Made by a program: the position numbers and the translations under genes
Part shown: positions 21,002-41,770 of the stretch, piece after piece
Layout: each line of letters opens with the position of its first letter
How positions within the stretch are numbered: position 1 is the stretch's first letter
NCBI RefSeq assembly: GCF_019879105.1
Contig: NZ_CP082249.1
Coordinates: 2,914,001 to 2,978,000 of the forward strand
Origin: Natrinema sp. SYSU A 869
GTDB taxonomy: Archaea; Halobacteriota; Halobacteria; Halobacteriales; Natrialbaceae
Direction of reading: 5' to 3'
DNA: 64,000 bases
Notes under the pieces: model-generated
Databases searched by the model: none
Seen by the model: only the letters and a program-made list of their open reading frames with translations
What the model was told of the DNA's origin: nothing

Positions 21002-21243
21002 GTCGCGGTGACCGCCGGGTACTCGAGGGCGTCACCGCGGAGAATTGACGGCGAGTTTCGGGCGCGAGAACGAAGAGTCGAGTCAGCCGGTTCCGAGTAC
21101 CGACCGGCGGGACCCAATCGGGCGCGACTGGCTCGTCCTATCATATCGCCGAGTGGATTTAGATGGATGTTTGCCGGCTCCGCTACGGTCGGCCGTTGCC
21201 GGCTCGGCTACCAGTACCGCGATTTCCGTTCCCTCTGTTTCTG

Positions 21244-21375
21244 TTATCTGTTACCGTTACCTCGGTTTCTGTTACCGCGATTTCTGTCACCACGATCTCT
21301 GTTACCGCGGTTTCCATTACTGCGTCCTCTGCGACCGCGACCGCTGTTACCGCGGTCTCTGTCGCCTCGATTTCC
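21244..21375 (-). repeat. Degenerate Asn-Arg-Gly-coding repeat at GH31 3' end
   Basis: The last ~43 codons of the GH31 gene consist of short repeats coding RGN, RGD and NR units, seen on the + strand as recurring ctgttaccgcg-like segments. They give a strongly basic tail, unlike the acidic rest of the protein. Confidence 0.8.
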
Positions 21376-24246
21376 GTTGAAGAACAGCTTTACCGGGTTG
21401 TCCTCGTCGGCGGGGACGTGTATGAGGACGGCATCGGCCGTTTCGCTATAGGTGAACGTTTCGGGCGTGTCCTCGACCGTTTCTGCGTCGCTGACTGCCT
21501 CGTACCTTCTGGAGGCTGCTTGGACCTTCCGCGGTGCTTCCGACCGGTCGAGTTTCAACAGATACGACGAAATCTGCGAGTCCGCGTAGTTTTGGACGAC
21601 CGTCTCGCGTTCGAAGGTGACCACGCCGCCGGGAGTGGCTGAGACAGTAAAGTCGGTCACGTTGTACGCTCCGTCTTGGTAGGATCGACTCTCGCCGTCG
21701 TCCTCGTAGAAGGAGTACGACGTTTCCTCGTCCACGTACGTGTCGAGGACGAGCATCGTCAGCGACTGCTCACCGGTATACTGCTGGACCTCCCGCATCG
21801 GGATGATGGTGTCGTTCCGAACGAAGACCGGGAGGTGATCGAGCGGGGCATCGACCGTGAGCGTCTGCCCGCCGTCGTACTCCTTGCCAGTCCAGTAGTC
21901 GATCCACTGCTCCCCCTCGGGTAGGTAGACCTCGCGGGAGGTCGCGCCTTCCTCGAGCACCGGTGCGACCATCATGTCGTCGCCGAACATGAACTGGTCG
22001 GCAATATCGTGGGTTTGCTCGTCGTCTTGGAAGTGGAACACCAGCGGCTGCTGGACGGGTTTTCCGGTCTCGGTGGCGTCCCGGAACTCGTTGTAGAGGT
22101 ACGGGAGCAGCCGATAGCGCAGTCGAAGGAACTTCTTGCTAATCGCTTCGACCTCGTCACCGAACGTCCAGGGATGTTGGTTCCGTGGCTCTCCGTCGTC
22201 GACCTTGTCGTGGCTGTCCGCGTGGTTCCGGCAGTAGGGGACGAACGCTCCGAGTTCCATCCACCGGGCGAACAGTTCCGGATCGGGTCGACCGACGAAG
22301 CCGCCGATGTCGTGGCCGACGAACGCCAATCCCGATAGCCCTAGGTTCAGGTGCATCGGGATTGACTTTTGCAGGTGCTCCCACGAGCTCACGTTGTCAC
22401 CAGTCCAGAGCGCCGCGTACCGCTGTCCCCCCGCGTAGAGGTTCCGGTTCAACAGGAACGGTCGCTTATCGGGCTTATAGACATCGTAGGCTTGGTTGGC
22501 TGCTCTGGCCATGTCGAAGCCGTACATGTTGTGATACTCCTCGTGGAGCATCGTGTCTTCGCCCGTCCCGTGGATGTTGTCGACCGGCATCGTCCAGTCG
22601 TACTTCTCGTTCTCCTGGAACACCGCCGGCTCGGCCATATCGTTTTTGATCCCATCGATACCGACGTCGAATAGTGCGTCGTGTTGCCCGGCCCACCACG
22701 AACGGACGTCCGAACGAGAGAAGTCGGGCCAGACCGTCTCAGGCGGCCAGACCTCGCCGACGAAAGTATCGCCATTCGCGTCTTTCACCCAGTAGTCGTT
22801 TTCCGTCCCCTCGAGATAGACGTCGTAGGGTGTGCCGTCGCCGGATGGGTTATCGTCGGCTGGGCCATCATCGGCTGGTCCGTCGTCAGACGGGCCCTCA
22901 TAGGGTGTGCTATCGCCGGCTGTGTCGTCGTCGGGACCATTGTCAAACGTGCTGTCACCGGACGTGCCGTCGTCAGACGTACCGTCCCCGGACGTACTGT
23001 CGTCGGATGGACCGTCGTAGGGTGTGCCATCGATGGCTGTGCCGTCGTCAGACGTGCCGCCGTTGGACTGGTCGTCAGTGGACGGACCGCCGTCGGAGGG
23101 GTCGTTGTCGTCGGACGTGCTGTCGTAGGACTCCACAGCCGCGACGCCGGGATCGTTGACGGCGACCGTTCTGATCCCCGGGATAGACTCGACTTGCCGG
23201 AGCGTCTCGAGGTAGTCGTCGTCCCAAGTGAACACGCGAAACTCGTTCATGTAGTCGATGTCGAAGTGCATCGCGTCTAGGGGAATCCCCTTTTCGCGGT
23301 AGGTTTCGGCGGTCTCGACGATCTCGTTCGGGGTGTATTGCCACCTGCTCTGGTGGTATCCCAGTCCCCACTTCGGCGGGAGTTCCATCGTCCCGGTCAG
23401 CTCCGTATACCGATTGAGGACCTGCTCGATCTCGGGGCCGTACGCGAAATAGTAGGTCAACTGGCCGCCGTCAGCGAGGAAGTAGTAGTAGTCGTCCGAC
23501 TCGGTCGCCATCTCGAACACGGAGTGATATGGGTCGTCGAAGAAGATCCCGTAGGCACCGACGTCTTTCAGGCCGACGAAGAACGGAATCGACGTATAGA
23601 CGTAGTCGCTGTCCGAGTCGTATGCGTACTGGTCCGTGTTCCACTGCTCGAGTTTCTCACCCCGTTTGTTGAATTCTTGACCGGGCTGTTCACCGAACCC
23701 GTAGAAGGCCTCGTTCTCGTCGGTCTTCTTGTACGCGTAGGGTTTGTCGTCCTCGTAGCCCGGCGACCCCTTCTCTAAGTAGTCTTCGTTGACGACGTTT
23801 CCGTCTTCGTCGAGGAACTTGACGCCGAAGCGTCCGTTATTGATCTCGACGGTGATCGTCTCCGTCTCGAGAGCGATCCGGTCTTCGTTCTCGTCGACAC
23901 TGAAACTCGGCGTCTCCCATTCCGCTCTTCCCGTTGCAATACCGCGGGACTCGTACTCCTCCTCACCGGGTTCGACGATCGAGACCCGCGCCATGTCGTC
24001 GGCGAACAGGCGGACGTATCCCTCGTACTCGCCGAGGTTGATTTTCACCCCATCCTCGAGGACATCGTAATCCCGAACGGATAACGTCTGTAAGTTGTCA
24101 TCGTCGAGTTCCGGTTCGTAATGGATTTTCGAGTCATAATGGTCGGCCCGTGCAGTCGAAGATGCGAGTGCACCGCCTGCCAGCAGCGCGGCCGATGCTT
24201 GCAAGAGCGTACGTCGGGTTGTGAGCCGTGGTGACCTATTAGCCAT
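21244..24246 (-). CDS. Secreted glycoside hydrolase family 31 enzyme (alpha-glucosidase/xylosidase-like)
   Basis: This 1000-residue protein has a Tat signal (RRTLLQASAALLAGGALAS, residues 11-29). The N-terminal beta-sandwich (about 40-280) is followed by a (beta/alpha)8 barrel with WGLGYHQSRWQYT, the nucleophile Asp536 in IKNDMAEP and the general acid Asp617 in WTGDNVSSW. C-terminal beta domains follow. It should hydrolyse alpha-linked oligosaccharides outside the cell. Two oddities: residues ~374-475, inserted in the barrel between VNDPGVAAVES and YDVYLEGTENDYW, are a pentapeptide repeat rich in Asp, Gly, Ser, Thr and Pro; and residues ~958-1000 form a basic tail of Asn-Arg-Gly repeats. Substrate specificity cannot be told. 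Confidence 0.95.
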   Translation of the reverse strand: MANRSPRLTTRRTLLQASAALLAGGALASSTARADHYDSKIHYEPELDDDNLQTLSVRDYDVLEDGVKINLGEYEGYVRLFADDMARVSIVEPGEEEYESRGIATGRAEWETPSFSVDENEDRIALETETITVEINNGRFGVKFLDEDGNVVNEDYLEKGSPGYEDDKPYAYKKTDENEAFYGFGEQPGQEFNKRGEKLEQWNTDQYAYDSDSDYVYTSIPFFVGLKDVGAYGIFFDDPYHSVFEMATESDDYYYFLADGGQLTYYFAYGPEIEQVLNRYTELTGTMELPPKWGLGYHQSRWQYTPNEIVETAETYREKGIPLDAMHFDIDYMNEFRVFTWDDDYLETLRQVESIPGIRTVAVNDPGVAAVESYDSTSDDNDPSDGGPSTDDQSNGGTSDDGTAIDGTPYDGPSDDSTSGDGTSDDGTSGDSTFDNGPDDDTAGDSTPYEGPSDDGPADDGPADDNPSGDGTPYDVYLEGTENDYWVKDANGDTFVGEVWPPETVWPDFSRSDVRSWWAGQHDALFDVGIDGIKNDMAEPAVFQENEKYDWTMPVDNIHGTGEDTMLHEEYHNMYGFDMARAANQAYDVYKPDKRPFLLNRNLYAGGQRYAALWTGDNVSSWEHLQKSIPMHLNLGLSGLAFVGHDIGGFVGRPDPELFARWMELGAFVPYCRNHADSHDKVDDGEPRNQHPWTFGDEVEAISKKFLRLRYRLLPYLYNEFRDATETGKPVQQPLVFHFQDDEQTHDIADQFMFGDDMMVAPVLEEGATSREVYLPEGEQWIDYWTGKEYDGGQTLTVDAPLDHLPVFVRNDTIIPMREVQQYTGEQSLTMLVLDTYVDEETSYSFYEDDGESRSYQDGAYNVTDFTVSATPGGVVTFERETVVQNYADSQISSYLLKLDRSEAPRKVQAASRRYEAVSDAETVEDTPETFTYSETADAVLIHVPADEDNPVKLFFNGNRGDRDRGNSGRGRRGRSNGNRGNRDRGDRNRGNRNRGNGNR
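22822..23127 (-). repeat. 15-bp tandem repeat coding a pentapeptide array inside GH31
   Basis: About twenty degenerate 15-base units encode pentapeptides of consensus D-G-(T/P)-(S/A/Y)-(D/G), for example DGTSD, DGTSG, GPSDD and GPADD. They keep the GH31 frame open and lie within the catalytic barrel coding region, corresponding to residues ~374-475. Confidence 0.85.
23893..23931. repeat. 39-bp direct repeat, copy inside GH31
   Basis: This stretch of the GH31 gene is repeated exactly at 24435-24473, upstream of the same gene and in the same orientation. The sequences flanking the two copies are unrelated. Confidence 0.9.
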
Positions 24247-24434: not shown

Positions 24435-24473
24435 GTCGACACTGAAACTCGGCGTCTCCCATTCCGCTCTTCC
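24435..24473. repeat. 39-bp direct repeat, intergenic copy
   Basis: This is an exact copy of GH31 positions 23893-23931, lying about 190 bases upstream of the GH31 start codon. There is no flanking CRISPR repeat and no further similarity on either side. Confidence 0.9.
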
Positions 24474-28297: not shown

Positions 28298-28351
28298 GTG
28301 TACGTCCAGTAGCAGTTGTACGTCCAGTAGCAGGTGTACGTCCGGTAGCAC
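28298..28351. repeat. Three tandem 18-bp repeats
   Basis: Three units of 18 bases (28298-28315, 28316-28333, 28334-28351) share the core TGTACGTCC(A/G)GTAGCA with one to three changes. They lie in the 233-base gap between the ahbAB start and the 3' end of the DUF5778 gene, upstream of the haem operon. Confidence 0.85.
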
Positions 28352-41705: not shown

Positions 41706-41770
41706 CGACAAGCAGTGCCGGACATACGCTTACAACGTCGACGAGCAGTGCCGGACGTACGCTTACAACG
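41706..41770. repeat. Two tandem ~33-bp repeats upstream of the flavodoxin gene
   Basis: Copies at 41706-41737 and 41739-41770 are 32 bases each with two A/G differences. Each contains TACGCTTACAACG, whose TTACAA could serve as a weak TATA-like box 24-60 bases before the ATG at 41795. Confidence 0.8.

Follow-up and report, generated by a model that had tools for sequence, protein, structure and literature searches.

A species-variable acidic repeat insertion, predicted to be disordered, in the catalytic domain of a haloarchaeal GH31 enzyme

The catalytic barrel of a putatively exported GH31 enzyme of Natrinema sp. SYSU A 869 is interrupted by a long, acidic insert encoded by degenerate 15-base repeats, and among the five related proteins that carry such an insert this copy is the longest and most periodic form. 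The gene lies in a 64,000-nucleotide stretch of DNA, hereafter the window. By analogy with acidic insertions described in other haloarchaeal enzymes, we read the segment as a disordered halophilic peptide insertion that would have grown by gain and loss of repeat units and would serve solubility or flexibility at high salt, an explanation in which we place about half of our confidence.

Results

Identity of the enzyme and its export signal

Domain models, the catalytic Asp pair and the fold all place the window protein in family GH31. The protein matches four Pfam models above the curated cut-offs (PF01055, 355 bits; PF21365, 115; PF13802, 98; PF17137, 41.6), which represent the N-terminal, catalytic barrel and C-terminal domains of GH31 and DUF5110; the insert splits the match to the barrel into two stretches. 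The best NCBIfam match is the MalA equivalog NF040948, whose 406.5 bits fall below the curated cut-off of 800, so that we give the protein no specific substrate name; GH31 alpha-glucosidase-like enzyme is a fair name judging by its sequence. Asp536 and Asp617, which we take from what is known of GH31 to be the nucleophile and the acid/base, respectively, are invariant in 34 of 34 rows, and the first-pass annotation of this DNA was right to call them retained. In each of the ten pairwise comparisons among the five long-insert genes, Nei-Gojobori dN/dS outside the loop and the C-terminal tail is 0.12–0.17; the core of the enzyme, catalytic residues intact, is under purifying selection.

In the nucleophile motif of the window protein (GIKNDMAEP, region of 22639) a Lys precedes NDM, a difference from human GAA, MGAM and the dextranase FjDex31A. 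KNDM is shared with other haloarchaeal rows of this GH31 group, and the Bacillota relatives have Trp at that position (WNDMNEP).

A twin-arginine motif, R11 R12 T L L, can be read near the N terminus. The Pfam TAT model gives no match to the window protein at E 0.001, and TAT_signal matches occur in relatives only and are weak. Of the Tat signal previously assigned to this protein, the arginine pair is present in the sequence.

Table 1 Features of the GH31 gene in window coordinates
Feature	Position	Strand	Basis
GH31 enzyme CDS, predicted alpha-glucosidase-like, putatively exported	21244..24246	(-)	1000 aa; open frame 24246 to 21244 of 1000 codons, Pfam and fold
N-terminal putative export signal, residues 1–35, twin arginine 11–12	24142..24246	(-)	read from translation
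Insert relative to short-loop relatives, residues 369–473, 105 aa	22828..23142	(-)	alignment
Low-confidence (predicted disordered) part of insert, residues 378–469	22840..23115	(-)	AlphaFold pLDDT
Catalytic nucleophile (presumed) Asp536 codon	22639..22641	(-)	invariant in 34/34 rows
Acid/base (presumed) Asp617 codon	22396..22398	(-)	invariant in 34/34 rows
Arg/Gly/Asn-rich tail, residues 959–1000, 15 R, 4 D, second 15-base array	21247..21372	(-)	alignment, periodicity, pLDDT
Tail tandem array, ~10 copies of 15 bases	21215..21362 (array region about 21198–21375)	(-)	Tandem Repeats Finder

Composition and periodicity of the insert

Flanked by PGV368 and Y474, the insert contains 29 D, 18 G, 16 S, 12 T and 11 P among its 105 residues, with 31 D plus E and not one K or R; it contains no N-x-S/T sequon for N-glycosylation. 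Its boundaries lie close to those given by the first-pass annotation (22822–23127), which had recognized a pentapeptide repeat inside the GH31 barrel. Base identity at a lag of 15 is 0.60 compared with 0.36 expected, a value that none of 5000 codon shuffles reached, and lags 30 and 45 behave like lag 15 in such shuffles. Reading the 15-base slices by eye gives ~18–19 degenerate units, roughly the "about twenty" counted before; a strict pattern catches 14, and one 12-base unit breaks the 15-base register. The segment thus consists of head-to-tail units above chance, as a variable-number tandem repeat does. Tandem Repeats Finder catches its middle in parts (22942–23016, period 30; 22959–23068, period 15) and returns 19 rows for the window, where the sole two with more than five copies both fall within the GH31 gene.

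Same-residue codons spaced five apart in the insert are identical in 22 of 39 cases, hardly above the 19.5 expected. Synonymous codon identity so near expectation gives no sign of very recent duplication among the units, and recent duplication at synonymous sites was rejected as an account of the array; the units are apparently old or strongly diverged. A donor array elsewhere in the genome was likewise rejected, as the matches besides the insert itself are short (14 listed, the best with E 0.07 over 21 bases).

Distribution and length among homologues

We measured the length of the segment at the insert site in an alignment of 35 full-length rows (A1). The alignment omits four proteins with doubtful starts (L014, L027, L029, L038), all of which have a short loop, three that the reading-frame filter did not pick up (L033, L037, L039), the cut-off frames L004 and L046–L052, and the duplicates L005, L007, L041, L045 and L054; L051 and L052 (also L091 and L086), outside A1, have a 16-residue loop. 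The segment spans 5–16 residues in 30 of the 35 rows, matching the earlier statement that GH31 enzymes have a few residues here: 10–16 in ten other haloarchaeal rows and 5–7 in the 20 remaining, non-haloarchaeal rows. The long segments measure 105 residues in the window protein, 75 and 70 in two Natrinema-type genomes (proteins identical to those of N. altunense AJ2 and N. ejinorense JCM 13890), 70 in Halopiger djelfimassiliensis and 78 in L040, and each of the five inserts has 22–31 acidic and 0–3 basic residues. With one genome per species in the comparison, these are differences between species. Such an extra acidic segment (70–105 residues, five rows) is absent from the non-halophile homologues, as is the case for halophilic insertions, and neither the halophilic Bacillota Halobacillus and Pontibacillus nor the ten other haloarchaeal rows have a long insert. 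Comparison of unit number among orthologues, which the first-pass annotation had proposed, thus uncovered an insert that is neither universal nor fixed in length, rather than the same fixed-length insert in all haloarchaeal GH31 enzymes.

In a tree built without the loop and the tail, the five insert-bearing proteins form one clade with support 100/99, and this single clade of long-insert rows indicates that the insert arose once. The window protein has a longer terminal branch (0.073) than the two further Natrinema proteins (0.028 and 0.027). The sister group of the haloarchaeal enzymes consists of Bacillota enzymes, from salt-loving members and others (Halobacillus, Pontibacillus, Bacillus), which hints at transfer between domains.

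A search with PF01055 detected GH31 in 21 of 125 family genomes, and the split barrel match is gapped at this site in the five insert-bearing genomes. The gene is patchily distributed: at a threshold of E 1e-50 it was found in 3 of 29 genomes of the genus, and at a threshold of E 1e-100 in 9 of 125 genomes of the family and 3 of 146 taken from the order (the window's genome counted in each), with haloarchaea beyond the family represented by separately found loci and plasmid matches. Fourteen further GH31 proteins of family genomes were set aside as members of other subfamilies; judged by eye their segments contain no acidic repeat, and the automatic segment value of "23" assigned to these paralogues is a misalignment. 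The three Natrinema copies have both flanks in common and share the same gene neighbourhood, and the flanks of the Halopiger and L040 copies gave no match to the window flanks.

The inserts of the four relatives are also 15-base periodic, though more weakly (lag-15 identity 0.46–0.49 vs 0.35–0.37 expected; no more than 6 of 2000 shuffles attain this). They end in a common non-repetitive block, EDGVS ... HT[RP]YDVY, which the window insert does not have, its repeats reaching the YDVY anchor directly. From this alignment the window loop appears to be longer by gain of units, minus the part that is common to its relatives.

Predicted structure and position of the insert

The AlphaFold model of the window protein (input of 34 rows; mean pLDDT 79.9, pTM 0.80) is a confident GH31 fold apart from residues 1–40, 378–469 and 959–1000, where pLDDT is below 50. 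The low pLDDT, as indirect evidence, predicts that the loop is disordered, and together with the composition given above it supports the earlier description of a disordered acidic loop; in a model of the N. ejinorense protein the loop is likewise of low pLDDT (gap 374–437). Short strands at 373–375 and 471–473 border the gap in the window model and may form a hairpin stem; they are absent from the N. ejinorense model. In TIM barrels the beta-alpha loops lie on the catalytic side. Structure modelling, which had been suggested as a way to see where the loop projects, puts the low-confidence segment after strand 359–364, a beta-alpha site that would face the catalytic side. Among solved structures, human lysosomal alpha-glucosidase (5nn3) and its kin come closest to the model (Z 44.9, rmsd 2.2, 748 aligned), and the GH31 dextranase FjDex31A (6jr6) aligns with Z 41.3. 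GH31 enzymes have a known variable segment, "insert 1", which joins beta3 to the following helix and was reported to be flexible in one cryo-EM study (PMC9061262); in terms of the model, the insert site is insert 1.

A second array of 15-base units at the gene's 3' end

The Arg-rich tail is itself encoded by 15-base repeats, a second array in this gene that the first-pass annotation missed. Its lag-15 base identity is 0.68, which none of 5000 shuffles reached. The array continues beyond the stop codon (21244–21246), where another frame reads on in like style and resembles the C terminus of the protein from N. ejinorense; the N. altunense and window proteins stop at the same aligned position. 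The tail measures 42 residues in the window protein, 62 and 68 in its two Natrinema relatives, and 13 in the proteins of Halopiger and L040. For an exported protein of a haloarchaeon, a basic tail is unusual. A common origin of the two arrays was considered and rejected, as 27 of 200 codon shuffles reach the score of 12 of their DNA alignment; in sequence, insert and tail arrays look independent though both have a 15-base period. That the acidic loop and the basic tail always occur together was also rejected, two of the five insert-bearing rows having tails of 13 residues.

Other repeats in the window include a 39-base segment from within the GH31 coding sequence (23893–23931) that recurs exactly at 24435–24473, ~190 bases 5' of the start codon and within a region that gave no alignment to the N. 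altunense locus, and short tandem repeats at 41706–41770 (33 bases x 2.0, 93% matches) and 28298–28350 (18 bases x 2.9, 91%).

Discussion

Human GAA (5nn3), MGAM and FjDex31A (6jr6, from Flavobacterium johnsoniae) share with the window enzyme the fold, the domains, the catalytic Asp pair and a variable insert 1 after beta3, but insert 1 of the window enzyme is ~90–100 residues longer, acidic and built of repeats. Acidic low-complexity linkers are a familiar feature of haloarchaeal exported proteins, and like the insert they are rich in D, G, S, T and P; outside the GH31 gene, none of the arrays that Tandem Repeats Finder reports for the window exceeds five copies. Acidic insertions in haloarchaeal enzymes are described in a review: in H. 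salinarum CysRS, a 20-residue insertion close to the active site raises turnover, and H. marismortui SerRS and ferredoxin extensions similarly provide an acidic extra segment, as here (PMC3787623). Compared with CysRS-type insertions, the present one is long (70–105 residues), based on tandem repeats, variable between species and carried by a secreted enzyme, and any role for it is putative. Given that the site is the known variable insert 1 (PMC9061262) and that acidic haloarchaeal insertions are on record (PMC3787623), the first-pass annotation overstated the case in calling the loop unusual. What is less usual is the repeat-built, species-variable form of 70–105 residues within a catalytic domain, beside a second array of opposite charge. 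In the open-access library searched, we found no description of a disordered tandem-repeat insertion in a haloarchaeal catalytic domain and no paper on a Natrinema GH31 glycoside hydrolase. MalH of Haloquadratum walsbyi, also a GH31 enzyme of a halophilic archaeon, is described as YicI-like, and in that source an insertion, a loop and a signal peptide go unmentioned (PMC5745559).

We propose that an ancestral short Asp/Gly-rich loop at insert 1 was the seed for the Asp/Gly repeats. Six short-loop haloarchaeal rows (L009, L010, L011, L042, L043 and L053) have DxDxDGxxE exactly at the insert site, and judging by these sequences a short loop of this kind is a plausible seed. The long loop would have arisen once, in the common ancestor of the enzyme lineage now present in Natrinema, Halopiger and one further genus (L040), and its length would then have shifted by gain and loss of 15-base units, probably through replication slippage. 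Lying on the catalytic side of the barrel without a part in catalysis, it would act as a negatively charged and highly hydrated bristle, in the manner of halophilic insertions, contributing solubility and loop flexibility at high salt, with weak selection on its composition and not on its exact sequence. The absence of Lys and Arg from the window insert and the 15-base periodicity of all five inserts speak for this explanation; the near-expected synonymous codon identity between units and the lack of a long insert in the halophilic Bacillota and in ten other haloarchaeal rows speak against it.

The main rival is that replication slippage simply enlarged a loop on the surface where any sequence will do so long as it is acidic and soluble, the result being functionless and filtered only against harm; we regard this as a real though lesser possibility. 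D/G/S/T/P-rich stretches with at least 12 D plus E per 60 residues occur in five other frames of the seven listed in the window, and so similar a composition elsewhere means that the insert may be merely tolerated. Its sequence also evolves faster than the core (dN 0.31–0.45 vs 0.05–0.09 in the four pairs with the window), its units, length and conserved 3' block change freely among relatives, most family genomes do without the gene altogether, and a second array within this gene runs just as freely, all as expected of a neutral loop. Against neutrality, an insert of at least 70 residues has been kept in all five members over three genera with its strongly acidic composition, and dN/dS within the insert is below 1 (0.23–0.43, on ~50 synonymous sites and a doubtful alignment). 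The best reading is of a halophilic insertion that selection favours, or that is no more than tolerated, on a secreted enzyme.

Two further explanations assign the loop a binding partner. The acidic loop and the Arg-rich tail might bind each other or a common partner (for the tail, a polyanionic cell surface) and so tune active-site access or anchoring, which would fit the repeat-built nature, 15-base period and opposite charge of both segments in the window protein and the two Natrinema relatives. Yet the insert of two other members is accompanied by only the short, 13-residue tail, screening in molar salt generally weakens charge pairing, and neither loop nor tail is ordered in the models, so we consider such pairing unlikely. 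It is similarly improbable that two slippage-driven disordered arrays of opposite charge in one gene jointly adjust solubility, surface attachment or substrate access with salinity. Binding of Ca2+ or of a polymer, raised in the first-pass annotation, would draw on descent from the DxDxDGxxE loop present in 6 of the 10 short-loop haloarchaeal rows, a motif that resembles an EF-hand loop. The EF-hand-like motif D-x-[DN]-x-[DN]-G, however, occurs in none of the five inserts in strict or loose form, and no ordered element is predicted within the insert; the Ca2+ proposal is not supported here, and a binding loop seems to us very improbable.

The homologues provide a graded series at one site (5–7, 10–16, 70–78 and 105 residues); on such closely related enzymes one could measure what a disordered acidic insertion costs or brings at high salt. 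The comparison of these sequences also suggests that turnover of tandem repeats is able to create such an insertion within a catalytic domain, with constraint maintained on the remainder of the enzyme.
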